In this document: piece after piece, positions 5,274 to 23,379 of the stretch | Numbering within the stretch: the stretch's first letter is position 1 | Layout of the letters: each line of letters opens with the position of its first letter | Assembly (NCBI GenBank): GCA_020161065.1 | Contig: JAIUPH010000004.1 | Location: forward strand, 24,021-88,020 | Reading direction: 5' to 3' | DNA length: 64,000 bases | Origin: Pseudomonadota bacterium | Lineage (GTDB): Bacteria > Pseudomonadota > Gammaproteobacteria > Burkholderiales > Burkholderiaceae_C | Position numbers and translations under genes: made by a program | Notes under the pieces: model-generated | Told to the model about the DNA's origin: nothing | The model's database searches: none | The model's input: only the letters and a program-made list of their open reading frames with translations

Positions 5274-5443
5274 GGCCCATCCTCCCCGCGGCCCTGAACT
5301 GCGGGGCCGGTGCGGCGATTCTGCGGCCGCCGGCGCCGTCGGTGCGAGGCTTGACACGCCTCAAGTGTGGTGGCGCGGTGCTTGCCCACACTGCGGCGGC
5401 CGATTCCGGATCTCCCGCGCGGCCCACGCGCCCGCTCGCCGCC

Positions 5444-6676: not shown

Positions 6677-7526
6677 GGTTGTGCAGCAGCACGGCGGCCA
6701 GCGGCAGGCCGCTGGCCGTCATCCACAGCCCGAGCAGCGCCTGCAGCAGCAGCAGCGCGCCGATGGCGAGGCCGGTCGCGCGGCGGCCCAGGCGCAGCGC
6801 CAGCCAGGCCACCACGGCCAGCAGCGGCAGCAGCAGCGCCGCGCCGCCGCGGTGCAGCAGGTGCAGCCAGGCGCCGCGCGGCTGGCCGGGCGCCGCGGCG
6901 GCATCGGGCGCCAGCCAGGGGTTGAGCGCCTGCGCGTCCCAGCCGGCCTGACCCGCGATGCGGCTGCAATCGGCCCAGTCGCCGCAGGCCTGCGCGGCCG
7001 CGGCGCCGCTGATCAGCGCGCCCAGCGCCGCTTGCAGCACGACGGCCAGCAGCGCGACGGCGGCCCAGCGCCTCAACTGAAGCGTTGGCCGCGTTGACGC
7101 TGGCGGCGTCGGCGGCGCCGCCAGCCGCACGCTGAGCGCCAGCAGCACGAAGCCGCCGAGCAGGTTGCCCAGCGTCACCGCCGGCAGCGTGGCGCCGCGC
7201 GTCACCACGCCGAGTGCGGCCAGCGCCAGCGTCAGCACCAGCAGCGCCAGCGCCAGCGGGCCCTCGGGCCGCAGCGCCGGGCGCGGCCGGTGGCTGATCA
7301 CCAGCAAGGCCACGGCCAGGCCGAGGAAGACGGTGGCCACGATGCGGTGGGCCAGCCGCGCCAGCCCTTCGGCAACGCCGGACGCGGCGGCCGGCGGCGC
7401 ACCGGCCTGCGACAGGCGCAGGTAGGCGCTGAGCACGATGGTGGCCAGCATCAGCGCCACGCAGACGCGGGCCAGGCGGCGGATCTGCGCGCGGCGGCGC
7501 GCGGGCTCAGGGGCGGCGAGGGCCAT
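6633..7526 (-). CDS. Divergent COX15/CtaA-family protein
   Basis: Second heme A synthase-like membrane protein, 297 residues from ATG 7526 (an in-frame TTG at 7550 is an alternative). Like the family it has two helical halves. His residues are seen in LARLAHRIVATV, LHLLHRGGA and LLHNLIAAA, and one extracytoplasmic Cys pair in ACGDWADC. At the second His position of the N-terminal half, the typical TLHLLGG is TLGNLLGG here, so one expected heme ligand is missing, and the N-terminal Cys pair is also absent. It may be a variant heme-modifying enzyme, a heme chaperone or a partner of the convergent CtaA. Its 3' end overlaps that gene by 44 bp. It is divergent from the oxidase operon starting at 7738. 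Confidence 0.8.
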   Translation of the reverse strand: MALAAPEPARRRAQIRRLARVCVALMLATIVLSAYLRLSQAGAPPAAASGVAEGLARLAHRIVATVFLGLAVALLVISHRPRPALRPEGPLALALLVLTLALAALGVVTRGATLPAVTLGNLLGGFVLLALSVRLAAPPTPPASTRPTLQLRRWAAVALLAVVLQAALGALISGAAAAQACGDWADCSRIAGQAGWDAQALNPWLAPDAAAAPGQPRGAWLHLLHRGGAALLLPLLAVVAWLALRLGRRATGLAIGALLLLQALLGLWMTASGLPLAAVLLHNLIAAALLALLARLV

Positions 7527-7625
7527 CGATGGGCACGGCGGGAGCGGCAAGCAAAACCCGCGAAAGCAGCAGGGATTCGATGCTAGCCGCGCGCGTTGCC
7601 GGGGCGGTTTCGGGCTTCGTTTTTC

Positions 7626-7639
7626 TTGACTTGGTTCAT
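7626..7639. promoter_or_regulatory. Possible FNR/DNR-like half-matching box
   Basis: TTGAC-N4-TTCAT lies about 100 bp upstream of the first gene of the heme-copper operon. It shares TTGA and TCA with the TTGAT-N4-ATCAA consensus of FNR/DNR-type regulators but lacks full symmetry. It would fit low-oxygen or NO control of the operon. The evidence is weak because one short partial match is expected by chance. Confidence 0.22.
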
Positions 7640-7737
7640 GTCCCGGCCCAGGGGGCGGGGCAAAGAATGCGCCGCATCCGGGGGGCTCGCGAGGGGAGCC
7701 GTCCGTCCATTTCAGTCCTCACGACGAAGGAGCGCTC

Positions 7738-7899
7738 ATGACGACACCGGCACACGACGATCCGAACGAACCCGTGCCCTGGATGCAGCAGTTGCTGGAC
7801 AACCCGTTCCTGCTGTTGTTCCTCGGCGTGTTCGTGCCCATGATGGTCTACACGGTGTGGGGCGTGGTCGACATCCTCACGCTGCCGGTGGCCAAGTAG
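7738..7899 (+). CDS. Small single-TM subunit of the heme-copper enzyme (subunit IIa-like)
   Basis: Protein of 53 residues: a polar N-terminus (MTTPAHDDPNEPVPW), one membrane helix (about 22-46, NPFLLLFLGVFVPMMVYTVW) and a short tail. The ATG at 7738 is preceded by GAAGGAG with five-base spacing, a convincing ribosome binding site. The next gene, CuA subunit II, starts 10 bp downstream with its own ribosome binding site over the TAG stop. Position and topology match the one-helix subunit IIa (CbaD) of Thermus-type ba3 oxidases, which precedes CbaB and CbaA in the same order. The assignment rests on context and topology, not on residue motifs. Confidence 0.82.
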   Translation: MTTPAHDDPNEPVPWMQQLLDNPFLLLFLGVFVPMMVYTVWGVVDILTLPVAK

Positions 7900-7908
7900 G
7901 AGAACGGC

Positions 7909-8448
7909 ATGAGCGCCATTCTTCCGCCGGCCGAGCGGCTTTGGTACAAGCACCCGATCGACCGTGTCGAAGGCACCTGGATCGCCATCGCGCTGACCTG
8001 GTGCCTGATCATGTTCTTCATGATGGTCGGCTGGCACATCTGGGGCCAGCAGAACCTGTCGACCGAGACCTACCGCACCACGCCTGACAAGTTCATGCCC
8101 AAGGTGCAGGCGATGGTCGACAAGTACACCGTGCGCACCGAGACCGACGAGAAGACGCCGGTGGTGGCGCCGCCGGCGGGCAGCGACGTCTACATGCTGG
8201 CGCGGCTGTGGAGCTTCTACCCGATCCTGGAGTTGGAGAAGGGCAAGACCTACAAGCTGCACCTGACGGCGATGGACTACAACCACGGCTTCTCGCTGCA
8301 GCCGGCGAACATCAACATCCAGATCGTGCCCGGCTTCGAGCACGTGGTCACCGTCACGCCCAACCAGTCGGGCACCTACTCGGTGGTCTGCAACGAATAC
8401 TGCGGCATCGGCCACCACAAGATGGTCGGTCGCATCTACATCAAGTGA
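7909..8448 (+). CDS. ba3-type heme-copper enzyme subunit II with CuA site
   Basis: Electron-entry subunit of 179 residues. One membrane helix (about 24-45) anchors a cupredoxin domain facing the periplasm. The binuclear CuA site is complete: the His of DYNHGFS and the cluster C-NEY-C-GIG-H-HK-M near the C-terminus. It is short, like the subunit II of B-family oxidases (Thermus CbaB). The ATG at 7909 has AGGAGA overlapping the upstream stop. It sits between the small subunit and subunit I. A CuA-bearing subunit II is also found in several NO-reductase families of the superfamily, so it does not by itself show O2 reduction. Confidence 0.92.
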   Translation: MSAILPPAERLWYKHPIDRVEGTWIAIALTWCLIMFFMMVGWHIWGQQNLSTETYRTTPDKFMPKVQAMVDKYTVRTETDEKTPVVAPPAGSDVYMLARLWSFYPILELEKGKTYKLHLTAMDYNHGFSLQPANINIQIVPGFEHVVTVTPNQSGTYSVVCNEYCGIGHHKMVGRIYIK

Positions 8449-8458
8449 GGAGGACGCG

Positions 8459-10159
8459 ATGAGCACCGCGACGACGTATCGCACCTGCCCGCGTTCCGGG
8501 CTGCAATTCGAGCGCCAGGCCGAATGGCTGATCAAGGCCAACGCCTTCATCGCCGTGGTCTGGCTGCTGATCGGCGGCCTGCTGGCCATCGGCGTCGTGC
8601 TGACGCGCTGGCCGGCGGTGCGCTGGCTGGAGGCCGACACCTTCTACATGGTGCTCACGGCGCACGGCATCGACATGCTGATCTTCTGGATCATCTTCTT
8701 CGAGGTCGCGGTGCTGTACTTCTGCGCCTCGACGCTGCTGCGCTGTCGAATCGCGACGCCGAAGATCGCCTGGCTGGCCTTCGCGCTGATGCTGATCGGC
8801 TCGGTGGTCAACAACATCTCGGTGTTCCGCGGCGCGTCCAGCGTGATGATGACCTCGTACGTGCCGATGATGGCCGAGCCGAACTTCTACCTCGGCCTGA
8901 TCCTGTTCGCCGTCGGCGCGCTCGTCGCCTGCTTCGTGTTCTTCGGCACCCTGGTGGTGGCCAAGCGCGAGAAGACCTACACCGGCTCGGTGCCGCTGGT
9001 CACCTTCGGCGCCATCACGGCGGCCATCATCGCGGTGTTCACCATTGCCTCGGGCGCGATCATCCTGATCCCCACCTGGCTGATGTCGCTGGGCGTCGTG
9101 AAGTCGGTCGATCCGCTGGTCTACCGCACCATCTGGTGGGCCTTCGGCCACTCGTCGCAGCAGATCAACGTGGCGGCGCACATCTCGGTGTGGTACCTGG
9201 TGGCGGCCATCGCCTTCGGCGCCAAGCCGATGAGCGAGCGCGTCAGCCGCACCGCCTTCCTGCTGTACATCCTGTTCCTGCAGCTCGCCTCGGCGCACCA
9301 CCTGCTGGCCGACCCGGGGCTGTCCACCGGCTGGAAGGTCGTCAACACCAGCTACTTCATGTACTTCGCGGTGCTGGCCTCGATGCTGCACGGACTGACG
9401 ATCCCCGGCGCGATGGAAGTGGCGCAGCGCCAGAAGGGCTACACCAAGGGCCTGTTCGAGTGGCTGCGCAAGGCGCCCTGGGGCAACCCGACGTTCTCGG
9501 GCGTGTTCATCTCGATCATCGGCTTCGGCTTCCTCGGCGGCATCTCCGGCGTGATGATGGGCACCGAGCAGCTCAACATGATCATCCACAACACCATCTA
9601 CGTGCCGGGGCACTTCCACGCCACGGTGGTGGTGGGCACGACGCTGACCTTCATGGCGCTGACCTACTACCTGATCCCGGTGCTGTTCAAGCGCGAGATG
9701 ATCCTGCCCGGGCTGGCCAAGTGGCAGCCCTACCTGTTCGGCTTCTCGATGTACTTCTTCTGCCTGGTGATGATGGGCGCCGGCACGCTGGGCGTCTCGC
9801 GCCGGCACTGGGACATGGCCTTCAACGGCCACGCCCTGGCCTACGAATGGCCCGGCGCCGCCTACCTGATGATGGCGCTGGTGGGCATCGGCGGCGTGGT
9901 GGCGATCGCCGGCGGCGCGATCTACATCCTGATCACCGTCGGCTCGCTGCTGTTCGGCCGCAAGCTCGACGAAGGCGCCACCAGCCCGAAGTTCACGCCG
10001 ATCCCGCGCACCGCGCCGACCGGTGCCGCGCAGACCTACGGCTCGATGGGCTTCGCGGCGCCCGGCACCTTCGCGCTGGCGATGGTCTTCCTGCTGGCCT
10101 TCGTGCTGTACTACTTCATCAACTGGAAGTACCTCTCGACCTTGTGGGGCTTGTCGTGA
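8459..10159 (+). CDS. B-family-like heme-copper subunit I with active-site Tyr replaced by Gln
   Basis: Catalytic subunit of 566 residues with about 13 membrane helices. The metal ligands are seen at His69 (TAHG), His231, His280 and His281 (ASAHHLL), His385 and His387 (PGHFHATV). Spacing closely matches Thermus ba3 oxidase (72, 233, 282, 283, 384, 386). At the position of the cross-linked Tyr (H-P-x-V-Y) this protein reads H231-S-S-Q-Q, so Tyr is replaced by Gln235. Known oxygen reductases need that Tyr, while heme-copper NO reductases lack it. I therefore read this as a possible NO reductase of a non-cNOR family (eNOR/sNOR-like) rather than a standard oxidase; function is not proven. The start ATG 8459 has GAGGAGG upstream. 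Confidence 0.88.
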   Translation: MSTATTYRTCPRSGLQFERQAEWLIKANAFIAVVWLLIGGLLAIGVVLTRWPAVRWLEADTFYMVLTAHGIDMLIFWIIFFEVAVLYFCASTLLRCRIATPKIAWLAFALMLIGSVVNNISVFRGASSVMMTSYVPMMAEPNFYLGLILFAVGALVACFVFFGTLVVAKREKTYTGSVPLVTFGAITAAIIAVFTIASGAIILIPTWLMSLGVVKSVDPLVYRTIWWAFGHSSQQINVAAHISVWYLVAAIAFGAKPMSERVSRTAFLLYILFLQLASAHHLLADPGLSTGWKVVNTSYFMYFAVLASMLHGLTIPGAMEVAQRQKGYTKGLFEWLRKAPWGNPTFSGVFISIIGFGFLGGISGVMMGTEQLNMIIHNTIYVPGHFHATVVVGTTLTFMALTYYLIPVLFKREMILPGLAKWQPYLFGFSMYFFCLVMMGAGTLGVSRRHWDMAFNGHALAYEWPGAAYLMMALVGIGGVVAIAGGAIYILITVGSLLFGRKLDEGATSPKFTPIPRTAPTGAAQTYGSMGFAAPGTFALAMVFLLAFVLYYFINWKYLSTLWGLS

Positions 10160-10217
10160 GTCCCGCCCGGCCGCCCGAAGGGATTCACACCGCAGTGCGG
10201 AGCACGGAGGTTTCACC

Positions 10218-11090
10218 ATGACCCAGGGTGGCCGCTGGCGCCTGGTGGCGAGCGTGTTCAAGCTGCGCATCGGGCTGCTGATCATGCTCACCGCCGTCGC
10301 CGGGCTGGCCATCGTTCCCGGGGGCGCGTCGGTGACGGCGCTGCAGGCCCTGGTGCTGGCGTTGTCGGTGTTCGTCGCGTCGGCCAGCGCCGGCGCCTTC
10401 AACCAGTTCGTCGAGGCCGACAGCGACCGCCTGATGCCGCGCACGCGCGCCCGCGCGTTTGCCAGCGGCGCGCTGCCGCGCAGCGCCGGCTGGCTGAGCA
10501 TCATCGTCGGGCTGCTGGTCGTCGCGGTGGCCGCCGCGGCCTGGTGGGTCAACGCGGTGGCCGCCACCTTCGTGCTGCTGGGCGCGCTGACCTATGCGGT
10601 GGTCTACACGCTGGGGCTCAAGCGCCGCACGGCCTGGAACATCGTGGTCGGCGGCCTGGCCGGCAGCTTCGCGGTGCTGGCCGGCGCGGCGGCGGTGAAC
10701 CCGCAGCTCGGGCCGCAGGCGCTGCTGCTGGCGCTGGTGCTGTTCCTGTGGACGCCGCCGCACTTCTGGAGCCTGGCCATCGCCAACGAGGCGCAGTACG
10801 CCGCCGCCGGCGTGCCCATGCTGCCGGTGGTGGTGGGGCCGGCGAGGGCCGCGCGCATCGTGCACGCCAACACCGTGGCACTGGTGGTGGCCTCGCTGCT
10901 GCCGCTGGCCTTCGGCGCCGGCTGGGCCTACGGCGCGGGCGCGGTGATCGGCGGCGCCTACTTCCTGCGCAAGACGCACGCGCTGGCGCGCGCGCCGCAG
11001 CGCAGCACCGCCATGGCCTCGTTCTTCGCGTCGATGCTGCAGCTCAGCGCCTTGATCGCCGGGGTGTTGATTGACGCTGCCTTGCGTTGA
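10218..11090 (+). CDS. ctaB: Protoheme IX farnesyltransferase (heme O synthase)
   Basis: Membrane prenyltransferase of 290 residues, UbiA superfamily, that adds farnesyl to heme B to make heme O, the substrate of CtaA. The allylic diphosphate-binding motif region reads NQFVEADSDRLMPRTRAR (about residues 60-77), and a second polar motif lies in the FLWTPPHFWSLA region. The start ATG 10218 has CGGAGG seven bases upstream. It lies directly after subunit I and its last 20 bp overlap the SCO-family gene. Its place in the operon suggests that the heme-copper complex uses heme A or O. Confidence 0.93.
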   Translation: MTQGGRWRLVASVFKLRIGLLIMLTAVAGLAIVPGGASVTALQALVLALSVFVASASAGAFNQFVEADSDRLMPRTRARAFASGALPRSAGWLSIIVGLLVVAVAAAAWWVNAVAATFVLLGALTYAVVYTLGLKRRTAWNIVVGGLAGSFAVLAGAAAVNPQLGPQALLLALVLFLWTPPHFWSLAIANEAQYAAAGVPMLPVVVGPARAARIVHANTVALVVASLLPLAFGAGWAYGAGAVIGGAYFLRKTHALARAPQRSTAMASFFASMLQLSALIAGVLIDAALR

Positions 11091-11991
11091 ACGCCTTGCC
11101 GCCGCGCTGCTGGCCGCCGCGGCGCTGCTGCTGATCGGCGGCGGCGCGCGCGCGGCCGCCGCCGAAGCCGAGGCTGCCACCACCACCACGACCCCCACGA
11201 CCCCCACCGCGGTGCCGGCGCTCGACGAGCGCGAGGCGCTGCGCCTGGGCGACGCCGCCATCGGCCGCGCGGTGCCCGAGCTGGCGCTGCGCGACCGCCA
11301 GGGCCAGCTCGTGAACCTGTCGCGCTACCGCGGCAAGCCGCTGCTGGTGAGCTTCATCTACACCGGCTGCTTCCAGATCTGCCCGACGCAGACGCGCGCG
11401 CTTTACGAAGCCGTCAAGGGGCTCGACCGCATGCTCGGCGAGCAGCAGTTCAACGTCGTCAGCATCGGCTTCAACCAGCCCTTCGACACGCCCGACGCGA
11501 TGCGCGCCTTCGCGGCGCAGAACCGCATCGGCTACCGCAACTGGGAGTTCCTGAGCCCCACGCGCGAGCAGGTCGAGCCGCTGACGCGCGCCTTCGGCTT
11601 CAGCTACGTGGCGACGCCGGCCGGCTTCGACCACGTGCTCGGCGTGACCGTGGTCGACGCGCAGGGCCGCATCCACGCCCAGGTCTACGGCGACCGCCTG
11701 CGCGCCGACCGCCTGGGCGAGCCGCTGCGCCAGTTGCTGCTGGCCGCGCCGCCGCAGGCCGCGCCGGTGACGCTGGCCAGCATGGTCGAGCGCGTGCGCA
11801 TCCTGTGCACCATCTACGACCCCGACAGCGGCGAGTACCGCTACGACGTCAAGCTGATCCTCGAAATCATCGGCGGCGCCGGCTTCTTCCTCACGGTCAT
11901 CGTCTACGGTCTGCTCGAATGGCGCAGCCAGCGGCGCGCGCGCCGGTCAACATGTCAGCCTCCGCAACCAGCCTCCGGCAGCGCGGCCTGA
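11071..11991 (+). CDS. SCO1/SenC-family copper chaperone with C-terminal membrane anchor
   Basis: Thioredoxin-fold protein of 306 residues that delivers copper to the CuA site. It has an N-terminal hydrophobic export signal, a Thr-rich linker, the C-x3-C motif (Cys100 and Cys104 in GCFQICP) and the distal copper-ligand His188 (FDHVLG). Unlike most SCO proteins it carries a C-terminal extension (about 235-290) with a Cys (RILCTIYD) and a membrane helix (LILEIIGGAGFFLTVIVYGL). The start is TTG 11071, inside the end of ctaB. Its end overlaps the cytochrome b fusion gene by 40 bp. The order subunit II, subunit I, ..., SenC resembles NorSY-SenC loci of ammonia oxidisers. Confidence 0.9.
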   Translation: MTLPCVERLAAALLAAAALLLIGGGARAAAAEAEAATTTTTPTTPTAVPALDEREALRLGDAAIGRAVPELALRDRQGQLVNLSRYRGKPLLVSFIYTGCFQICPTQTRALYEAVKGLDRMLGEQQFNVVSIGFNQPFDTPDAMRAFAAQNRIGYRNWEFLSPTREQVEPLTRAFGFSYVATPAGFDHVLGVTVVDAQGRIHAQVYGDRLRADRLGEPLRQLLLAAPPQAAPVTLASMVERVRILCTIYDPDSGEYRYDVKLILEIIGGAGFFLTVIVYGLLEWRSQRRARRSTCQPPQPASGSAA

Positions 11992-13523
11992 AGGGCTGGC
12001 AGGCCGTCGAAGCGCTGTTCGACGCCGCCTTCGGCTCGCGCCTGAACCCGCTGCGCCACCTGGGCGCGATCGGCGTGCTGGCGTTCTGGCTGCTGGCGGC
12101 CAGCGGCATCGTGCTGTACGCGGTGCTCGATACCTCGGCGGCCGGCGCCTGGGCGTCGGTCGAGGCGCTGGCGCATGTGCCGTTGGGCCTGGGCCTGCTG
12201 CTGCGCGGCCTGCACCGCTACGCAGCCGACGCGCTGATGCTGGCCATGCTGCTGCACCTGCTGCGCGAATGGCTGCACGCGCACGAGCGCGGCGTGCGCC
12301 GCTTCCACTGGCTGACCGGCGTGGTGCTGATCGGCTTCGTCTTCGTCGCGTCGATCGGCGGCTTCTGGCTCAACTGGGACCAGCTCGGCCAGTACTCGGC
12401 CATCGCCACCGCCGAGTGGCTGGACGCGCTGCCGCTGCTGGCGGCGCCGCTGGCGCGCAACTTCCTGGCCGGCGCGGTGGGCGACCGGCTGTTTTCGCTG
12501 TTCGTCTTCGTCCACCTGGGGGTGCCGCTGCTGCTGCTGTTCGGGCTGTGGTTCCACGTGCAGCGCCTCAGCCGCGCCGAGTGGCTGCCGCCGCGGCCGC
12601 TGGCGCTGGGCGTCACGCTGACGCTGGCCGCGCTGGCGCTGGCCTGGCCGGTGCTGAGCCAGCCGCCGGCGGCGCTGGACCGCGTGCCGCAAAGCCTGCA
12701 GCTCGACTGGCTGCTGCTGTGGCTGCACCCGCTCACCGATGCCGGCTCGGCCGCGCTCACCTGGGCGCTGGTCGGCGGCGCGGCGCTGCTGCTGCTGACG
12801 CTGCCGTACTGGCCGCAGCCGGCCAAGCCGGCGGTGGCGCTGGTCGATGCGGCCAACTGCAACGGCTGCCGGCGCTGCTTCGCCGACTGCCCCTACGCCG
12901 CGGTGACCATGGTGCCGCACCCCAACCAGCGCATCGGCCGCCAGCTCGCGCAGGTCGACGCCGACCTCTGCGTGGGCTGCGGCATCTGCGCCGGCGCCTG
13001 CCCGTCGTCGACGCCGTTCCGCGGCGCGGAGCGGCTGGTCACCGGCATCGACATGCCGCAGCTCGGCGTCGACGGCTTGCGCCGCCGGCTGCGCGAGGAC
13101 CTGGCGGCGTCCAAGGCCGAGCGGCCGCTGGTGGTGTTCGGCTGCGACCACGGCGCGCGCCGCGGGGCCGCGGCTAACGCCGATGATGATGATGTCAGCG
13201 GCTGCAGCCTGCTTTGCGCCGGGCAGTTGCCGCCGTCGTTCGTCGAGTACGCGCTGCGCGACGGCGCCGCCGGCGTGCTGGTGGCCGCCTGCCGCGAAGG
13301 CGGCTGCGAGTTCCGCCTGGGCGAGCGCTGGACCGCCGAGCGCCTGGCCGGCCGCCGCGAGCCGCACCTGCGCGCCCAGGTGCCGCCCGAGCGCGTGGAG
13401 CTGGTCTACGCCGGCCCCGGCGACGAGGCGCTGCTGGCCGCCGCGCTGCAACGCCTGCGCCGGCGCGTGCAGGCGCTGGCCCCGATTCCTTCGGATCCCG
13501 AACGGCGCCTGCGCCATGGCTGA
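11952..13523 (+). CDS. Cytochrome b - 2x[4Fe-4S] - MvhD-like fusion protein
   Basis: Membrane electron-transfer protein of 523 residues. The N-terminal domain resembles the first half of cytochrome b/b6, with two H-x13-H pairs (His88/102 and His188/202) expected to hold two hemes b. After further helices comes a cytoplasmic 8Fe-ferredoxin part with two classic C-x2-C-x2-C-x3-C motifs (from Cys303 and Cys340). The C-terminal 150 residues resemble the MvhD/FrhD-type iron-sulfur subunit (VFGCDHG, GCSLLCAGQLPP, ACREGGCEF). Such proteins link ferredoxin-like or disulfide donors to hemes or quinones. It overlaps SCO upstream and the next small gene by 8 bp. The electron donor and acceptor are not known; partnership with the neighbouring heme-copper subunits is inferred from the operon. 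Confidence 0.85.
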   Translation: MSASATSLRQRGLKGWQAVEALFDAAFGSRLNPLRHLGAIGVLAFWLLAASGIVLYAVLDTSAAGAWASVEALAHVPLGLGLLLRGLHRYAADALMLAMLLHLLREWLHAHERGVRRFHWLTGVVLIGFVFVASIGGFWLNWDQLGQYSAIATAEWLDALPLLAAPLARNFLAGAVGDRLFSLFVFVHLGVPLLLLFGLWFHVQRLSRAEWLPPRPLALGVTLTLAALALAWPVLSQPPAALDRVPQSLQLDWLLLWLHPLTDAGSAALTWALVGGAALLLLTLPYWPQPAKPAVALVDAANCNGCRRCFADCPYAAVTMVPHPNQRIGRQLAQVDADLCVGCGICAGACPSSTPFRGAERLVTGIDMPQLGVDGLRRRLREDLAASKAERPLVVFGCDHGARRGAAANADDDDVSGCSLLCAGQLPPSFVEYALRDGAAGVLVAACREGGCEFRLGERWTAERLAGRREPHLRAQVPPERVELVYAGPGDEALLAAALQRLRRRVQALAPIPSDPERRLRHG

Positions 13524-14064
13524 AACCTTGTCTTCTTCTCCGTCACGTCCTTCCGATGCGCCGGCCGGCCCGGCGCGCTGGCTGGGCCAGGTGCTGCTGT
13601 ACGGCCTGTTCGCGCTGGCGATCGGCGTCTTCTCGCACTGGCCGCCGTACCACCACCTGGGCCCCGGGCAGGCGCTGATCAAGGTCAGCTTCTCGCGCGT
13701 GGGCAAGCCGGTGGGCGACTGCCGCAAGCTCAGCGACGCCGAGCTGGCCAAGCTGCCGCCCAACATGCGCGCCACCGAACAGTGCCCGCGCGAACGCTCA
13801 CCGGTGACGATCGAGGTCGACGTCAACGGCGCCAACGTGCTCAGCCGCACGGCGCCGCCGAGCGGCCTGTCCAAGGACGGCGCCTCGGCGCTTTACCAGC
13901 GCCTGGTGGTGCCGGCCGGCGAGCAGCGCATCGCGGTGCGCTTTTCCGACGACGTGCGCGCCCGCGCCACGCCGTACCACCGCGAAGCCACGGTGAAGCT
14001 GGTGCCGGGCCAGGTGCTGGTCATCGATTTCGACGCCGAGAAGGGCGGCATCACCCTGCAATGA
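13516..14064 (+). CDS. Membrane-anchored protein of unknown function
   Basis: I do not recognise this 182-residue protein. It has a cytoplasmic N-terminus, one membrane helix (about 22-42, GQVLLYGLFALAIGVFSHW) and an extracytoplasmic beta-rich domain with two Cys (GDCRKL and EQCPRE) that could form a disulfide. It overlaps the cytochrome b/4Fe-4S gene by 8 bp and the degenerate heme-copper subunit by 4 bp (ATGA), so translation is probably coupled. A role as an accessory or assembly subunit of the same complex is inferred from this packing. No cofactor motif is visible. Confidence 0.75.
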   Translation: MAETLSSSPSRPSDAPAGPARWLGQVLLYGLFALAIGVFSHWPPYHHLGPGQALIKVSFSRVGKPVGDCRKLSDAELAKLPPNMRATEQCPRERSPVTIEVDVNGANVLSRTAPPSGLSKDGASALYQRLVVPAGEQRIAVRFSDDVRARATPYHREATVKLVPGQVLVIDFDAEKGGITLQ

Positions 14065-15488
14065 ACACCCTCGTCGCCTTGCGCAAGCATTCCCGCGCCG
14101 TGCCTGCCACGGCATCCACCCCGTCCGACTACGTGCTGCCGGTGGCCGGCGCCGAGCGCATCGCGCTGGCGCGGCGCTGGCTGCTGCTGGCGCTGGCGGC
14201 GCTGCTGGGCTCGGGGCTGTTCTCGGTGCTGCTGGTGCTGGCGCGCACGCCGGGCATCAACGCCTGGCTGCCGGCCGGCGACTTCTTTCGCGTGGCGCTG
14301 GTCGTGCACGTCGACCTGTCGGTGCTGGTCTGGTTCGCCGCGATGGCCGGGCTGTTGTGGAGCCTGAACCTGCGCGAGCCGCAGACGCCGCGCGCGCGGC
14401 TGGCGGCGCGCGTGCCGCTGGCGCTGTGCGCGCTGGGCGCCTTCGGCATGGCGCTGGCCGCCTTCGTCGAGCCCGGGCAGGCGGCGGTGATGGCCAACTA
14501 CATCCCGGTGCTCGACGGCGTGGTCTTCCGCGGCGCGCTGGCGCTGTTCGGCGCCGGCGCGCTGGCGCTGGTGGCGCTGGGACTGGCGCGCGCCCTGCCC
14601 GTGGGGCTGGCGCCCGACGGCAGCGGTGCCTTGCGCTTCGGCCTCAACGCCAGCGTGGTGGCGGCGGCGGTCGGGCTGCTGGCCTTCGGCTGGTCGCTGG
14701 CGGTGGTGCCGGCCGATCTGCCGGCCAAGGCCTATTACGAGATCCTGTTCTGGGGCGGCGGCCATGCGCTGCAGTTCACCTGGACGCTGCTGATGCTGGT
14801 CTCCTGGCTGGCGCTGGCGCAGGCCTGCGGCGGGCGGCTGCCCTTGAGCCCGCGCGTGGTGCTGCTGATGTTCGCGGTGGCGCTGGCCAGCGTCTTCGTC
14901 ACGCCGCTGGCTTATCTGATGCACGACGTGAGCACGGTCGAGCACCGCGACATGCACACCTGGGGCATGCGCTTCGGCGGCGGCGTGGCCATCGTGCCGC
15001 TGGCGCTGGCGGTGCTGGTGGCGGTGGCGCCGCTGCGCTCGGTGGGCGCGCTGCAGCGGCCGCTGCGCGCGGCGCTGCTGGCGTCGATGCTGCTGTTCGT
15101 CGCCGGCGGGCTGATCGGCCTGGGCATCCAGGGCAGCAACGTCAAGATCCCGGCGCACTACCACGGCTGCATCGTCGGCGTCACGCTGGCGCTGATGGGC
15201 ATGGTCTACCACCTGCTGCCGCGCCTGGGCTACGCGGCGCCCAGCGGCCGGCTGGCGGTGGCGCAGCCCTGGGTCTACGGCATCGGGCAGTTGATGCACA
15301 TCGTCGGCCTCGTGTGGTCGGGCGGCTACGGCGTGCAGCGCAAGGTGGCCGGCGCCGAGCAGGTGCTGCGCAGCACCGGCGAGGTGGCCGGCATGGGCTT
15401 GATGGGCCTGGGCGGGCTGCTGGCGGTGGTCGGCGGGCTGCTGTTCGCGCTGGTGGTGTGGCGCGCCATGCGGGCGGCGGCGCGATGA
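14061..15488 (+). CDS. Degenerate heme-copper oxidase subunit I-like protein
   Basis: Polytopic membrane protein of 475 residues with about 12 helices. Motifs recall subunit I: His83 (VVHVDLSVLVW) and His368 (AHYHG) as low-spin heme ligands, His366 as the possible high-spin ligand, and His235 in WGGGHALQFTW at the first CuB position. No Tyr follows that His, and the adjacent His-His pair that completes CuB is absent; instead that region reads YLMHDVSTVEHRDMHTWGM. The active site is therefore probably altered or lost. It may be a heme-carrying electron-transfer or quinone-binding subunit, or a member of an uncharacterised heme-copper family. It is coupled by ATGA overlaps to genes on both sides. 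Confidence 0.78.
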   Translation: MNTLVALRKHSRAVPATASTPSDYVLPVAGAERIALARRWLLLALAALLGSGLFSVLLVLARTPGINAWLPAGDFFRVALVVHVDLSVLVWFAAMAGLLWSLNLREPQTPRARLAARVPLALCALGAFGMALAAFVEPGQAAVMANYIPVLDGVVFRGALALFGAGALALVALGLARALPVGLAPDGSGALRFGLNASVVAAAVGLLAFGWSLAVVPADLPAKAYYEILFWGGGHALQFTWTLLMLVSWLALAQACGGRLPLSPRVVLLMFAVALASVFVTPLAYLMHDVSTVEHRDMHTWGMRFGGGVAIVPLALAVLVAVAPLRSVGALQRPLRAALLASMLLFVAGGLIGLGIQGSNVKIPAHYHGCIVGVTLALMGMVYHLLPRLGYAAPSGRLAVAQPWVYGIGQLMHIVGLVWSGGYGVQRKVAGAEQVLRSTGEVAGMGLMGLGGLLAVVGGLLFALVVWRAMRAAAR

Positions 15489-17413
15489 TCGCCTTGCTTC
15501 AGCGCGTGCTGCGCGCCGGCTTCATGCGCGCCGAGGCGCTGTTCAACCGCGCCTTCGGCGACCGGCTGAACCCGCTGTACCACCTGGGGGCGATCACCTT
15601 CTTCCTGTTCTGGGTGGTCGGCGGCACCGGGCTCGTGCTGTATGCCTTCTTCGACACCAGCGTCAGCGGCGCCTACCGCTCGGTGGAGGCCATCAGCCAC
15701 GGCGCCTGGGGCGCCGGCGGCGTGCTGCGCACGGTGCACCGGCATGCGTCGGACGCGATGCTCTTGAGCATGCTGATCCACCTGCTGCGCTACTTCGCCT
15801 TCGACCGGCTGCGCGGCTTTCGCTGGTTCTCGTGGGTCACCGGCGTGGTGCTGCTGTGGCTGGCCTACATCGCCGGCGCCAACGGCTACATGCTGCCGTG
15901 GGACCGGCTGGCGCAGTTCGTCACGCAGGCCAGCTTCGAGTGGCTGGACTGGCTGCCCGGCTTCGGCGGCCGGCTGATCCGCAACTTCATCCTGCCCGAG
16001 CACGTCAACGACCGGCTGTTCTCGCTGCTGGTCTTCATCCACATCGGCGTGCCGCTGCTGATGCTGCTGCTGATGTGGGTGCACGTGCAGCGCGTGCCCA
16101 AGGCCGCCACGCAGCCGCCGCGGCCCATCACCGTGGCGCTGCTGGTGATGCTGCTGCTGCTGGCGCTGCTGGCGCCGGTGGTCAGCCAGGGCCCGGCCGA
16201 CCTGCACACGACGCCGGCGGTGCTGTCGATCGACTGGTTCATCCTGCCCATCTTCACGCTGCTGTACGCTTGGCCGCTGGCGGGCGTGTGGACGCTGGTG
16301 CTGGGCGGCACGGCGCTGCTGGCGCTGCTGCCCTGGCTGCCGCCGCGGCGCCGCGCCGGGCAGCTGCGGCAGATCACCGCGCACCCGGGGCCGGCGCGCA
16401 TCGCGGCGCGGCCGGGCGAGACGCTGCTCGAAGCCGGGCTGCGCGCCGGCCTGGCGCTGCCCTACGACTGCCGCGCCGGCGGCTGCGGCCAATGCCTGTG
16501 CACGGTGCTCAACGGCCGCGTCGACCAGGGCGCCTTCCAGGCCGCGGCGCTGACGCCGGCCATGCAGGCGCGCGGCCAGGCGCTGATGTGCTGCGCGGTG
16601 GCGCTGGAAGACGTGGAGATCGAAGTCGAAGGCGTTGCCACGCTGGGCAGCGCCGACGCCACGCCGCTGGGCCGCTGGCAGGCGCGCGTGCAGCGCATGG
16701 AACGGCTCTCGCCCGACCTGATGCGCATGCACATCGCGCTGCCCGAAGGCCAGCACCTGCCCTTCACCGCCGGCCAGTACATCAACATCCTGCTGGCCGA
16801 CGGCGAGAAGCGCGCCTTCTCGTTCGCCAACGCGCCGGCCGACCCGGCGCAGCCGCCGTCGACCGCGGGCGACGTGATCGAGCTGCACGTGCGCTGGATT
16901 CCCGGCGGCCGCTTCACGACCCAGGTTTTCGAGCAGATGAAGGTCGGCGACACGCTCGATTTCGAAGGGCCGCTCGGCCGCTTCACGCTGCACGACAGCG
17001 AGCGGCCCATCCTGATGCTGGCCGGCGCCACCGGCTTCGCGCCGATCAAGAGCATTCTCGAAGACGCCTTCCGCCGCGGCGTGCAGCGGCCGATGCAGCT
17101 CTACTGGGGCGTGCGCAAGGCCGGCGACCTGTACCTGCAGGAGCTGCTGCAGCGCTGGCAGGCCGAGCACCCCAACTTCCGCTACGTGCCGGTGCTGTCG
17201 GAGGCCGACGACGACGCACGCTGGAGCGGCCGCCGCGGCTACGTGCACGAAGCCTTGCTGGCCGACCACCCCGACCTCGGCGGCTTCGAGGTCTACGCCT
17301 GCGGCTCGGTGCGAATGGTGCAGGCGGCGGTGCCCGACTTCCTGGCGCACGGGCTGGGCGAGCAGTTCTGCTTCTCGGACGCGTTCGTGCCCTCGCCGCG
17401 TAGCGGCGGCTGA
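15485..17413 (+). CDS. Cytochrome b - [2Fe-2S] ferredoxin - FAD/NAD(P)H reductase fusion
   Basis: Protein of 642 residues joining three modules. Residues 1-280 form a cytochrome b/b6-like membrane domain with H-x13-H pairs His85/99 and His186/200 and share many stretches with the gene at 11952 (LNPLYHLGAI, LFWVVGGTG), so the two are paralogs. Residues about 295-385 are a plant-type [2Fe-2S] ferredoxin (Cys329, 334, 337 and 369 or 370). Residues 395-642 are a ferredoxin-NADP reductase-type flavodomain with RAFSFAN for FAD and LAGATGFAP for NAD(P). This builds a path from NAD(P)H through FAD and 2Fe-2S to hemes b across the membrane. The start ATG overlaps the upstream TGA. The acceptor (quinone or heme-copper subunit) is inferred only. 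Confidence 0.88.
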   Translation: MIALLQRVLRAGFMRAEALFNRAFGDRLNPLYHLGAITFFLFWVVGGTGLVLYAFFDTSVSGAYRSVEAISHGAWGAGGVLRTVHRHASDAMLLSMLIHLLRYFAFDRLRGFRWFSWVTGVVLLWLAYIAGANGYMLPWDRLAQFVTQASFEWLDWLPGFGGRLIRNFILPEHVNDRLFSLLVFIHIGVPLLMLLLMWVHVQRVPKAATQPPRPITVALLVMLLLLALLAPVVSQGPADLHTTPAVLSIDWFILPIFTLLYAWPLAGVWTLVLGGTALLALLPWLPPRRRAGQLRQITAHPGPARIAARPGETLLEAGLRAGLALPYDCRAGGCGQCLCTVLNGRVDQGAFQAAALTPAMQARGQALMCCAVALEDVEIEVEGVATLGSADATPLGRWQARVQRMERLSPDLMRMHIALPEGQHLPFTAGQYINILLADGEKRAFSFANAPADPAQPPSTAGDVIELHVRWIPGGRFTTQVFEQMKVGDTLDFEGPLGRFTLHDSERPILMLAGATGFAPIKSILEDAFRRGVQRPMQLYWGVRKAGDLYLQELLQRWQAEHPNFRYVPVLSEADDDARWSGRRGYVHEALLADHPDLGGFEVYACGSVRMVQAAVPDFLAHGLGEQFCFSDAFVPSPRSGG

Positions 17414-17518
17414 GGTGGAAACGCGTAGCGGCGGTTGAGGCGGAACCGCGTAGCGGCGGTTGAGGTGGCACCGCGTAGCGGCGGCTGAGGTGGAACCGCA
17501 CAGCGGCGGCTGAAAGGG
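17401..17518. repeat. 25-bp tandem repeat, about 4.7 copies
   Basis: Units begin at 17401, 17426, 17451, 17476 and 17501 (last one partial), each starting tagcggcgg (cagcggcgg in the last) with one to three differences. The first unit contains the last codons and the TGA stop of the cytochrome b/reductase fusion, so the array starts inside the gene. It fills most of the gap before the next gene (17414-17618). No inverted symmetry or spacers were seen, so it is neither a terminator array nor a CRISPR. The remaining 100 bp before 17619 show nothing recognisable. Confidence 0.85.
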
Positions 17519-17618
17519 CGCCGGCAATCGTCGGAAAGTGCCGGCCCCGCGGCGAGGCGGGCCGCTAGACTGCAGCGCTTTGCCCCGTCCTCCCGCCCCT
17601 CAACCCCCGCTGCCGCGC

Positions 17619-18626
17619 ATGAAGATCCTCGTCACCGGAGCCGCCGGCTTCATCGGCATGACCACCAGCCTGCGCCTGCTTGCGCGCGGCGACGAGGTGG
17701 TCGGCCTCGACAACCTCAACGACTACTACGACGTGCAGCTCAAGCGCGACCGCCTGGCTCGGCTGACGCCGGCGCCGGGTTTCCGCTTCGTGCAGATCGA
17801 CGTCGCCGACCGGCCGGCGATGGAGGCGCTGTTCGCCGCCGAGCGCTTCGACCGCGTCATCCACCTGGCGGCGCAGGCCGGCGTGCGCTACTCGCTGCAG
17901 AACCCGCACGCCTACGTCGACAGCAACGTCGTCGGCTTCATGAACGTGCTGGAAGGCTGCCGCCACGGCGGCGTGCAGCACCTGGTGTACGCGTCCAGTT
18001 CGTCGGTCTACGGCGGCAACACACGCATGCCGTTCTCGGTGCACGACCGCGTGGACCACCCGGTCAGCATGTACGCGGCCACCAAGAAGGCCAACGAGCT
18101 GATGGCGCACACCTACAGCCACCTGTTCGGCCTGCCGACCACGGGCTTGCGCTTCTTCACGGTCTACGGGCCCTGGGGGCGGCCGGACATGGCGCTGTTC
18201 CTGTTCACCAAGGCCATCCTCGAAGGCCGGCCGATCGACGTCTTCAACCGCGGCAACATGCGGCGCGACTTCACCTACGTGGACGACATCGTCGAAGGCG
18301 TGATCCGCGTGACCGACCGCGTGGCCACGCCGTCGGACCGCTACGACGCCGAGCAGCCCGACCCCGCCACCAGCCATGCGCCGTACCGCGTGTTCAACAT
18401 CGGCAACCACCAGCCGGTGCCGCTGATGGACTTCATCGCCTGCATCGAGGACGCGCTGGGCCGCAAGGCCGAGAAGAACTTCCTGCCGCTGCAGGACGGC
18501 GACGTGCCCGCCACCTACGCCGACGTGGCGGCGCTGGAAGACTGGGTGCAGTTCAAGCCGGCGACCTCGATCAGCGCCGGCATCGGCCGATTCGTCGACT
18601 GGTACCGCGGCTACTACAAGGTCTAG
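17619..18626 (+). CDS. UDP-glucuronate 4-epimerase (NAD-dependent SDR)
   Basis: Extended short-chain dehydrogenase of 335 residues that interconverts UDP-glucuronate and UDP-galacturonate. It has the NAD-binding GAAGFIG at the N-terminus, the catalytic Ser region ASSSSVYGG and YAATKKAN (Tyr/Lys), and family features [16 protein letters not shown] and [14 protein letters not shown] typical of bacterial uronate 4-epimerases. ATG 17619 (MKILVTG) starts exactly at the Rossmann strand. It lies ahead of the exopolysaccharide locus and probably supplies a uronic acid precursor. Its TAG stop overlaps the stop of the convergent protease gene. Confidence 0.93.
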
Positions 18627-19429
18627 GAGCGGTTCTCGGCGATCAGCGCGTGCAGGTAGCGCACCGGCAGCGCGTAGGTGATGCCGGTGGGCTGGCTGAG
18701 CGCCGATTCGCGGCCGCCCTTCACCAGCCCCATGTTGACGACGCCGATGACGCGGCCGGTCTCCAGCTCGAACAGCGGCCCGCCGCTGTTGCCCGGATAG
18801 GCGGTGGCGTCGAGCTGCAGCAGCTCGAAGCTGCCCTCGCGCAGCCGCGTCACCGTGCCTTCGTCGAGCTGGCGGGCGCCGGCCGTCGGCAAGGCGCTGG
18901 CGACGATGGAAGCCACGATGCCGCGGTGGGTGACCGGCTTGAAGCCCAGCACGCCGCCGATCGGGTAGCCGATCAGCGCCACGTCCATGCCTTCGCGCGC
19001 CGTGCCGGCCGCCGCCAGGGGCAGGGCCGGCCCCGGCTGCCCCTTGATGCGCAGCAGCGCCAGGTCGTGCGCGCGGCTGCTGCCCAGCACTTCGGCGTCG
19101 CGCTGTTCCAGGCTGCCGTCGGGCCGGGCCGTCTGCACGGCGATCGAGGTCACGCCCGCCGTGCGGTTGGGCGCCGTCAGGTCGGGCAGCACGTGCCAGC
19201 AGGTGGCCACGATGCTGCCGTCGCCGATGAAGAAGCCGCTGCCGCGAAAGCCGAAGCGCGGGCTGTCCATCATGTTGAAGGTGCCGACGGCGCACACCGA
19301 CGGCTTGGCCGTGGCGATCAGCTCCGGCAAGGGCGTCGCCGCCCAGGCCGGCAGCGCCACAGCGCCGCCGGCCAGCGCCAGCAGGCGGCGGCGCCGCAGA
19401 TCGGGGGGCTGAGGGCGGTGTTGCTGCAT
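18623..19429 (-). CDS. Secreted trypsin-like serine protease
   Basis: Exported peptidase of 268 residues with the trypsin-like triad His79 (CWHVLP), Asp122 (HDLALL) and Ser215 (GNSGGPL). The N-terminus (about 1-31) has Arg-Arg-Arg-Arg before a hydrophobic stretch ending in Ala-x-Ala, which could be a Tat or Sec signal. No PDZ domain follows, so it is shorter than DegP/HtrA. The start ATG 19429 is chosen; ATG 19450 is in frame and possible, and neither has a strong ribosome binding site. It converges on the epimerase gene (four-base overlap) and diverges from the exopolysaccharide transferase. Its target is unknown. Confidence 0.85.
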
Positions 19430-19820
19430 GCGCTGTCGCCGGGCTGTCATCGACGCGGCGCATTGTGCGGGCCGGTGGCCACGATGTCTGCGGTGGCGCG
19501 AGGTGCGTCGTCGTGGACGAGTACCGAAACTATCCGTGACGGGCGCAATGGCGGCTGCAATCATCCTGGGCCTGTGGACAACAATAATTGCAAGCGGGTG
19601 TCAACTGTTGGGCATGGACCACGGTGCGCCCCCCTAGGCCGGGGGTTGTTCGGCCGGAGACCGGCTCCTTACAGTCGTCGCCCGGTGTCGGGAGATCACT
19701 CATCTCAAAGCGTCCGCGTGGCGCCAGCTCCCACCGGGCACGTGCTGCCGACTGTGAATAACTGGCCTGCCGATCGGCCAGCCGGTCTTACGAATTGATC
19801 CGAATCACAGGTTTCTCTCG
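19430..19820. other. Intergenic region between divergent protease and exopolysaccharide genes
   Basis: About 390 bp without a convincing gene. It holds hairpin-capable sequence at 19629-19645 (CCCCC/GGGGG) and 19653-19665 (GCCGG-AGA-CCGGC). No full sigma-54 or sigma-70 consensus was found. It must contain the promoters of both divergent genes. Confidence 0.6.
19762..19781. promoter_or_regulatory. Inverted repeat upstream of the exopolysaccharide transferase gene
   Basis: CTGGCC at 19762-19767 and GGCCAG at 19776-19781 flank an overlapping palindrome GCCGATCGGC (19769-19778). It lies 40 bp upstream of the gene starting at 19821 and could be an operator for a dimeric regulator. Which regulator binds cannot be read from the sequence. 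Confidence 0.35.
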
Positions 19821-21206
19821 ATGATCCGCATCTTCAGCCACTACGTAAGCCGGCAAAGCATGCTGCGGGTGCTGTTCGACCTGGCTTTCCTGCTGCTGGC
19901 CATGTTGGTCGTGTTCGTGGCGTTCGCCGACGGACTGTCCGCCATCGGGGCGCAGGCCGGCGCGCCGGTGCTGTCGGTCGCCGCCGGCATGTTCATCGTC
20001 AACTCGGCTTCGGGTTTTTACCAACGCTCCAGCAACTTCACGGCGTCCCAGGCGCTGGGCCGTGCGACCATCGCCTTGTTGATCGTGCTGCCGTTGACGT
20101 ACTTCGTCTTCGACCTGCTGCCCCCCACCGTCACCAATCGCGAAGCCATCAAGTACGCCGCCATGTTCGGCGCCGGGGCCGTGGTGCTTCGCCGCCTGTA
20201 CGTCACGCTGTGGGGCGCCGACCCCCTGTCGCGCACGCGCATCCTGATCTTCGGCGCGGGGCCTGCCGCGGGCATCGTCGGCGCCACGCTGAAGGCGTCG
20301 GACCCCAACGCGCACATCGTCGGCTACGTCTCGGGCCCCAACGAAAAGGAAGTCTCCGTCGCCAGCGGCGAGTTGCTGTCGACCGACGGCCAGTCGCTCA
20401 CCGAAACGGCGCGGCGGCTGCAGGTCGACGAGATCGTCGTCGCGCTGACCGAGCGCCGCGCCGGCAGCATGCCCTTGCGGCAACTGCTGGACTGCAAGCT
20501 CAGCGGCATCAAGGTCTACGACATCGCCACGCACTTCGAGAAGACGCTGGGCCAGATCCGCATCGACTACGTCAACGCCGGCTGGCTGATCTTCGGCAGC
20601 GGCTTCAACCAGGGCGTGGCGCGCAGCCTGATCAAGCGCAGCTTCGACCTGCTGTGCTCGTTCGTGCTGTTCGTGCTGGCGCTGCCGATCATGCTGGTGA
20701 CGGCGCTGCTGATCAAGCTGGAAAGCCGCGGCCCGCTGCTGTACCTTCAGGAGCGCGTGGGCCAGAACGGCAAGACCTTCAAGGTGTGCAAGTTCCGCAG
20801 CATGCGCACCGATGCCGAGAAAGACGGCCGCCCGGTCTGGGCCGTGGCCAACGATTCGCGGGTGACGCGCATCGGCGCCATCATCCGCAAGCTGCGGGTC
20901 GACGAACTACCGCAGCTCTTCAACGTGCTCAAGGGCGAGATGAGCCTGGTCGGCCCGCGGCCGGAGCGGCCGTTCTTCGTCGAGCAGTTGACGGCGCAGA
21001 TCCCGTACTTCGCGGCCCGCCACAGCGTCAAGCCGGGCGTGACGGGTTGGGCGCAGGTGCGGTATCAGTACGGATCGACGGTGGAGGACTCGCAGGAGAA
21101 ACTCCAGTACGACCTGTACTACGTGAAGAACCATTCGCTCTTCCTCGACATCGTCATCCTGTTCGAGACGGTCTTCGTCGTGCTCACCGCCAAGGGCGCA
21201 CGCTGA
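19821..21206 (+). CDS. XrtA-associated exopolysaccharide sugar-phosphate transferase (EpsB type)
   Basis: Initiating polyprenyl-phosphate sugar transferase of 461 residues that loads the first sugar phosphate onto undecaprenyl phosphate at the inner membrane. It has N-terminal helices (about 15-125), a CoA-binding-like/NAD-fold region (RILIFGAGPAAGIVG), one further helix (about 275-297) and the catalytic C-terminus with KFRSMRTDAE, DELPQLFNVLKGEMSLVGPRPE and KPGVTGWAQV. The layout fits the TIGR03013 family found at exosortase A loci. It begins the PEP-CTERM regulatory block, followed after 48 bp by prsK. The start ATG 19821 has no strong ribosome binding site. Confidence 0.92.
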   Translation: MIRIFSHYVSRQSMLRVLFDLAFLLLAMLVVFVAFADGLSAIGAQAGAPVLSVAAGMFIVNSASGFYQRSSNFTASQALGRATIALLIVLPLTYFVFDLLPPTVTNREAIKYAAMFGAGAVVLRRLYVTLWGADPLSRTRILIFGAGPAAGIVGATLKASDPNAHIVGYVSGPNEKEVSVASGELLSTDGQSLTETARRLQVDEIVVALTERRAGSMPLRQLLDCKLSGIKVYDIATHFEKTLGQIRIDYVNAGWLIFGSGFNQGVARSLIKRSFDLLCSFVLFVLALPIMLVTALLIKLESRGPLLYLQERVGQNGKTFKVCKFRSMRTDAEKDGRPVWAVANDSRVTRIGAIIRKLRVDELPQLFNVLKGEMSLVGPRPERPFFVEQLTAQIPYFAARHSVKPGVTGWAQVRYQYGSTVEDSQEKLQYDLYYVKNHSLFLDIVILFETVFVVLTAKGAR

Positions 21207-21254
21207 ACGCTCGCGGCGGCTTCGCCGCACGAGCGGGCGCTGACCCCGGCCCCG

Positions 21255-23375: not shown

Positions 23376-23379
23376 GGTC

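Follow-up and report, generated by a model that had tools for sequence, protein, structure and literature searches.

Why would a bacterium keep two different cytochrome b fusion proteins around a small anchored protein and a relative of heme-copper oxidase subunit I, all in one run of overlapping genes? The question is raised by four genes, here called P1 to P4, at 11952-17413 of a 64,000-nucleotide stretch (the window) of contig JAIUPH010000004.1, assembly GCA_020161065.1, from a member of the Burkholderiales. The original prediction took them for a stand-alone four-gene membrane complex and missed the same-strand genes at 7909-11991, which belong to the same unit. Judged from gene content and order, P1-P4 are the second half of a conserved operon of the nitric oxide (NO) reductase eNOR, which reads subunit II, subunit I, CtaB, SCO, P1, P2, P3, P4.

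An eNOR operon and its four downstream genes

The upstream half of the operon, on the forward strand like P1-P4, begins with the two structural subunits. Subunit II (7909-8448; Pfam COX2, 24.5 bits against a cut-off of 22) is an anchored cupredoxin with CuA ligands, and H126, C161, E163, C165, H169 and M172 are found in 84 of 84 aligned rows. Subunit I (8459-10159; COX1, 214 bits) adjoins it and has the six histidines of heme-copper oxidases together with Gln235, which aligns to the tyrosine of 7deg_A and thus replaces the cross-linked tyrosine; H231, Q235, H280, H281, H385 and H387 are kept in all 87 rows (83 distinct) and H69 in 86, the last row having a gap. A glutamine at this helix-VI active-site position is the mark of eNOR in Table A4 of PMC8756737, and subunit I is on this signature an eNOR-type NO reductase. 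The same residue ruled out sNOR, which has Asn there, and the NorB subunit of cNOR or qNOR, which has Glu. Two genes with uncertain starts follow, one coding for the heme O synthase CtaB (10212-11090, within an open frame at 10023-11090; NCBIfam TIGR01473, 240 bits, over the cut-off) and one for a SCO1/SenC copper chaperone (11071-11991; Pfam SCO1-SenC, 52 bits), the frame of which overlaps P1 by 40 base pairs (bp).

P1 (11952-13523), P2 (13516-14064), P3 (14061-15488) and P4 (15485-17413) overlap by 8, 4 and 4 bp, respectively, and their coordinates, overlaps and domain composition agree with the original prediction. P1 is a b6-type diheme cytochrome b fused to a ferredoxin with two [4Fe-4S] clusters and an FlpD/MvhD domain (Pfam Cytochrome_B, 4Fe-4S domains and FlpD/MvhD). 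P4 joins another b6-type diheme cytochrome b to a [2Fe-2S] ferredoxin and a flavin adenine dinucleotide (FAD)/NAD(P)H reductase (Cytochrome_B, Fer2, FAD_binding_6 and NAD_binding_1). The sequences support a paralogous relation between the two cytochromes b as well as an architecture built for NAD(P)H input, and the H-x13-H pairs are exact, as had been noticed: H88/H102 and H188/H202 of P1 are kept in 90/90 aligned rows, and H85/H99 and H186/H200 of P4 in 88-89 of 89. Additionally, the eight cysteines for two [4Fe-4S] clusters and the four FlpD cysteines of P1 occur in 90/90 rows, the four [2Fe-2S] cysteines of P4 in 89/89, and C69 and C90 of P2 in 103/103; the rows are partly redundant, with 85 distinct sequences for P1, 86 for P4 and 96 for P2. 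P2, the small anchored protein of the earlier description, has a single predicted transmembrane segment (residues 22-41). The window's P2 matched no Pfam family, single relatives gave only scattered weak matches, and comparison of P2 with the PDB gave no convincing match (best E 0.86, to immunoglobulin chains).

P1 and P4 would each place two bis-histidine heme sites in a four-helix bundle, a diheme domain that they share with cytochrome b6 of the b6f complex (1q90, 6rqf). Unlike that protein, they are fused to cytoplasmic ferredoxin or reductase domains and have a conserved D-W where the PEWY motif of bc1 and b6f would sit; P4 carries GYMLPWD, and a Pfam scan of the four products gave no Rieske protein. 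The C-terminal half of P1 resembles the electron-transfer domains of HdrA/MvhD, with the difference that here the domain is joined to a cytochrome of the membrane; the scanned genes of the window include no Hdr protein. P4 would act like the NADPH-oxidase-like transmembrane reductases. Its module leading from NAD(P)H through FAD to the [2Fe-2S] cluster is that of BenC-type ferredoxin reductases (1krh), and it differs from both groups in that its heme part is of the bc type.

The source genome (98.7% complete) has four COX1-family matches, namely eNOR, P3, CcoN and CtaD/CoxA, with the ccoN and ctaD matches exceeding curated cut-offs. It also has three Cytochrom_D1 matches, one of which, located on the contig of the window some 18 kb upstream of eNOR, combines cytochrome c and d1 parts in the manner of NirS. 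As the other COX1 matches are CcoN, CtaD/CoxA and P3, the organism looks like a nirS denitrifier with eNOR as its only NO reductase of the heme-copper superfamily found.

Co-occurrence with eNOR in the Burkholderiales

The conservation of the four genes was followed by a co-occurrence search of the kind first proposed for them, covering 300 genomes of the order Burkholderiales, and P1-P4 were found to track eNOR. Subunit I (E<=1e-60) was present in 23 genomes, and P3 at E below 1e-90 in exactly those 23; one of them (G187) has a more divergent P3 (E 3e-95), which is separated from P4 by 2.8 kb and encoded on the opposite strand, and a 24th genome with a P3-type gene (G145) has only a distant type fused to tetratricopeptide repeats (TPR). 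Full-length P1 was found in 21 genomes, all of them eNOR-positive; full-length P4 also occurs in 21 genomes, 20 of them eNOR-positive. Two eNOR genomes have P4 and lack P1 (G022, G100) and three have P1 and lack P4 (G011, G266, G295), so all 23 hold at least one of the two. Among the 277 eNOR-negative genomes there was no full-length P1 and one full-length P4, in an assembly of 580 contigs with 7% contamination (G153); the 4 kb contig that carries this P4 also holds SCO, P2 and, cut at its end, a P1-like cytochrome b.

The best 80 of at least 556 relatives were inspected as named loci, and 72 of these contain eNOR subunit I (>60% identity). Cultured strains are among the relatives, for example Comamonas granuli NBRC 101663 and Quisquiliibacterium transsilvanicum DSM 29781. 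P2, P3 and SCO accompany it in all 72, P4 in 69, subunit II in 68, P1 in 67 and ctaB in 63, and none of the best 80 is without both P1 and P4. Seven of the eight loci lacking subunit I are, judged from their lengths, cut by contig ends at that place; the eighth, L110, is described below. Two gene orders predominate, P1-P2-P3-P4 and P4-P2-P1-(P2)-P3, and the full set is also conserved in several metagenome-assembled genomes (MAGs) labelled Lysobacterales, Dokdonella or Steroidobacteraceae. The gene set is thus seen in dozens of genomes and is therefore not a product of chance.

The set mostly splits outside the order

Conservation as a unit, which the original prediction had expected, held for the Burkholderiales and some MAGs and for the most part did not hold outside the order, where P1 and P2 on one side and P3 on the other mostly lie apart. 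In a wider survey of 388 genomes across the phylum, with P3 of any type counted at E<=1e-15, eNOR was present in 30 genomes, P3 in 58 and both in 29; one genome that is 69% complete (G455) has eNOR without P3, and another (G478) has a distant P3 only. P1 was found in 8/8 selected eNOR-positive genomes and in 0/13 genomes with P3 and without eNOR (chosen from the 29 such genomes), which gives a Fisher probability of 4.9e-6 when relatedness is ignored. P1-P2 follow eNOR-ctaB-SCO in four loci (L260-L263) and are divergent from eNOR in a fifth (L266); in other genomes they lie far off or on another contig, mostly beside NirS-family genes (L284 and L285 are exceptions).

Outside the order, P3 is found elsewhere than P1-P2; the exception is a single lineage that has P1-P2-P3 runs (L210, L215, L244). 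Among the 35 distinct P3 genes examined there, ctaA is the immediate neighbour of 13 (two of them in P1-P2-P3 runs, and one a partial match at a contig end), one more adjoins ctaB and one a DUF420/ctaM-like gene. L244 (3924-13857) reads eNOR-SCO-P1-P1-P2-P3-CtaA, the last with Asp/Asn at the two sites discussed below for CtaA, and genome G431 has one P3-ctaA pair adjoining coxI/coxII/ctaB (L256) and another P3 in a P1-P2-P3 run (L215). This arrangement suggests that the L244 lineage and its relative G431 may hold parallel sets. L110 (417-10041, on a 10 kb contig) contains genes for a COX III-like protein, SCO, a COX II-like protein, a CtaD-type COX I with the tyrosine, and CtaB, followed by P1, P3 and a cut CtaA variant, with no eNOR on the contig. 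As a separate observation, genes for a small anchored cupredoxin and for two cytochromes b561 were also seen in two of the P3-ctaA loci (L242:10319-12212 and L256:6920-9022).

P3 is a conserved relative of subunit I without the CuB histidine pair

P3 matches Pfam COX1 with 57.5 bits (cut-off 34.8) and had been called degenerate in the original prediction; it belongs instead to a conserved family that lacks the helix-VII CuB histidine pair. H83, H366 and H368 are present in all 101 near relatives (96 distinct), as are H235 and Q238, with F239 in 100. The helix-VII pair is absent from all 101 and from 25 further or distant sequences, which also keep H83, H235, H366 and H368; at one of the two helix-VII sites (position 288) a single histidine occurs in 49/101 rows, the window's included. 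A profile alignment with eNOR subunit I places H235 at the helix-VI CuB ligand, F239 at the Gln/Tyr position and H366/H368 at heme ligands, and leaves the helix-VII pair without counterpart. P3 therefore retains the histidines for a low-spin and a high-spin heme and lacks the three that bind CuB or FeB. On these residues it can ligate two hemes, and a three-His CuB cannot form because the pair is absent. The idea of a decaying, pseudogene-like oxidase was ruled out by ligands conserved across the family. The P3 profile had no sequence match in the PDB at E 0.01.

The TPR-fused paralogs form a branch with tree support of 99/95 (the repeats were tested by Pfam in L048 only). In each of the four loci that were inspected (L048, L049, L050, L051) they adjoin genes for cytochrome c assembly, with Cytochrom_C_asm genes in all four, CcmB and an ABC ATPase in L049 and L051, and CcmE in L051. 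A protein with 11 CxxCH motifs also lies near the paralog in L049, L050 and L051. Thus, where its neighbours are informative, P3 is, by gene neighbourhood, a companion of heme A and heme c assembly genes.

A CtaA variant accompanies the operon

Two CtaA-type genes lie ahead of the window's operon. The first (5342-6676, forward strand; Pfam COX15-CtaA, 229 bits) codes for a canonical heme A synthase that keeps E-x-x-H-R and has E/H/H at the key sites; it is a neighbour of the operon and a candidate member only. An open reading frame at 4744-6951 was discarded as a gene, being in the wrong frame across this ctaA. The second (6633-7550, reverse strand; COX15-CtaA, 77 bits) is divergent from the operon and codes for a variant with Arg for the proposed catalytic Glu, the residue three positions ahead of the first His in heme A synthases, and Asn for one substrate-side heme His. 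Its relatives (47 distinct, the window's included) have Arg in 46 cases and Lys in one at the first site, and Asn in all 47 at the second. Where the locus holds P1, P2 or eNOR, 64 CtaA rows show such changes, all with Asn (61 with Arg, one with Lys and two with Asp from one gene). CtaA beside P3 elsewhere is canonical in 13/13 rows (11 distinct genes).

A change of the same two places appears in a table of PMC8239418, which lists CtaA/Cox15 'E57K and H123N' in betaproteobacteria such as Accumulibacter; the match in numbering is our reading. That variant has Lys, and the part of the paper available to us states no link to NO reductase, whereas the variant described here has mostly Arg and is linked to eNOR.

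Genomic setting and control region

In this regard, the neighbours of the eNOR loci were also examined. Clustering of open frames from 101 loci found CtaA-type genes in 58, the NirS-type family in 23, Crp/Fnr regulators in 22, and the NnrS, U32 and SCP2 families in 8 to 10 each; the U32 and SCP2 families are presumably the oxygen (O2)-independent ubiquinone genes UbiU/V/T. In addition, an Fnr/Dnr-like box matching at 9-10 of 10 positions lies ahead of subunit II in 31/84 loci, compared with 2.3% of random segments of the same loci and 0.5% of shuffles. The neighbour families and this box place the operon, as far as sequence can tell, in a denitrification setting, often under anaerobic control. 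In the window itself, Fnr-like boxes were numerous overall and none was placed in 7551-7908, no sigma-70-like promoter was found in 7400-8500, and Rfam had no match in 4000-18000.

Other features of the window

An XrtA/PEP-CTERM exopolysaccharide region begins downstream of the operon (17538-24771), with an epimerase-like gene, an EpsB_2 glycosyltransferase, the histidine kinase PrsK and a PEP-CTERM-box response regulator. A 25-base tandem repeat of 4.7 copies (17396-17513) runs from the end of P4 into the intergenic space. Upstream, the reverse strand codes for a large subtilisin-like protein with a repeat-rich C-terminus (1368-4463), which matches mycosin and dentilisin models below cut-off.

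A possible role in eNOR biogenesis and the alternatives

Taken together, these data lead us to favour, tentatively, the possibility that P1-P4 are the dedicated biogenesis and redox module of eNOR for growth without O2. In such a module, P3 would work with CtaB and the variant CtaA, holding heme (o or a) and handing it on. P4 would pass electrons from NAD(P)H through FAD and the [2Fe-2S] cluster to its two hemes b, and P1 would pass them from a low-potential donor through the FlpD domain and both [4Fe-4S] clusters to its own pair. Since either gene alone can remain, P1 and P4 may be interchangeable inputs that move electrons across the membrane, the direction being putative. With P2, they would keep the heme reduced or support the chemistry from heme O to heme A that normally needs O2, and eNOR would be loaded with heme anaerobically.

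A strong rival, near to the original prediction, is that the four products form an electron-input complex for catalysis, because P1-P2 also adjoin nirS: P4 and P1 would take electrons from NAD(P)H and from a low-potential source, these would reach eNOR either by way of the hemes b, P2 and P3, the last serving as a diheme relay, or by way of quinone, and NO would be reduced independently of bc1. The close tracking of eNOR by P1 and P4, the complete chain from NAD(P)H to membrane heme in P4, the nirS-family neighbours of P1-P2 in other lineages and the ligands for two hemes kept in P3 all agree with it. We nevertheless consider it possible but on balance unlikely, and lean to biogenesis, because a conserved CuA entry site is already present in eNOR (84/84 rows), because the informative neighbours of P3 are heme-assembly genes, with P3 adjoining ctaA in genomes without eNOR and P1 and its TPR paralogs adjoining cytochrome c assembly genes, and because in L110 the genes that P1, P3 and the CtaA variant follow are ctaB and an O2-reducing oxidase of the CtaD type. 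Furthermore, the canonical heme A synthase requires O2, as stated in the consulted parts of PMC9145763 and PMC12808453, which is a problem under anaerobic control. Several observations weigh against the biogenesis reading. Several lineages have P1-P2 beside nirS-family genes and not beside ctaA, which fits electron supply equally; among the 35 P3 genes examined from outside the order, 20 have no ctaA, ctaB or DUF420 neighbour, some of them at contig ends, and five (L245, L246, L250, L251, L257) lack one despite several kb of flank. In addition, P3 sequences from P1-P2-P3 clusters do not group as a single clade, since the tree needs two changes, 17 CtaA rows in P1/P2/eNOR loci keep the Glu, the window's own canonical CtaA among them, so that the variant need not make heme A, and the Fnr/Dnr-like box upstream of the window's operon scores just 7/10.

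A more specific proposal, that heme A or another modified heme is made and loaded independently of O2 for a putative heme-A eNOR under anoxia, appears more doubtful. Here CtaB, the Glu-less CtaA, P3 and the NAD(P)H- and ferredoxin-linked cytochromes b would replace the heme A synthase reaction, and UbiU/V/T, if these are the U32/SCP2 neighbours, would offer a parallel. It is improbable that P1-P4 serve redox balance as an NAD(P)/ferredoxin:quinone oxidoreductase, which might run from quinol to NAD(P)+ driven by the proton-motive force, as has been proposed for the 'Ca. Accumulibacter' enzyme described below. The D-W conserved where PEWY would be expected and the GYMLPWD of P4 would suit such an enzyme. 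It would not need eNOR, yet the eNOR-negative Burkholderiales gave no full-length P1 and a single P4 from a fragmented assembly, and a Rieske protein is missing among the four products. Lastly, P3 might itself be a catalytic heme-copper enzyme with unusual ligands, e.g. a second NO-reactive site, given its two ligatable hemes, the near-invariant H235, Q238 and F239 and the His at position 288 in about half of the rows. The absence of the helix-VII pair from every P3 sequence compared makes a three-His CuB/FeB impossible, and this explanation is very improbable.

Relation to known systems

eNOR has reportedly been purified from Rhodothermus. The Gln-type subunit I with a cupredoxin subunit II immediately upstream is common to the eNOR of PMC8756737 and the operon described here; P1-P4 and the CtaA variant are not mentioned in the portions of that paper that we used. 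The NorSY-SenC/qCuANOR clusters, as far as presented in the consulted parts of PMC3475470 and PMC6967387, likewise group a CuA subunit, a heme-copper subunit I and SCO, in one Bacillus case with ctaB as in this operon; they have Asn at the Tyr position and, unlike the present locus, no cytochrome b fusions are mentioned there. A search of the literature by titles and abstract openings found no description of the P1-P4 set; the main eNOR paper lay outside that search, so absence from print is not established. Thus, eNOR is already known, and its accessory P1-P4 module was not found described. 'Ca. Accumulibacter' reportedly has a novel quinol reductase in which a cytochrome b is fused to NAD and flavin domains, and this protein may be a homologue of P4. 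The enzyme is proposed to reduce NAD(P)+ with quinol at the expense of the proton-motive force (in the part consulted of PMC4930944, citing Garcia-Martin 2006).

eNOR is among the poorly known NO reductases and makes N2O, a greenhouse gas. The genomes compared here name candidate partners for it, including an oxidase homologue that has seemingly turned into a heme-handling protein, and how an enzyme of the heme-A type may be built without oxygen becomes a directly testable question.

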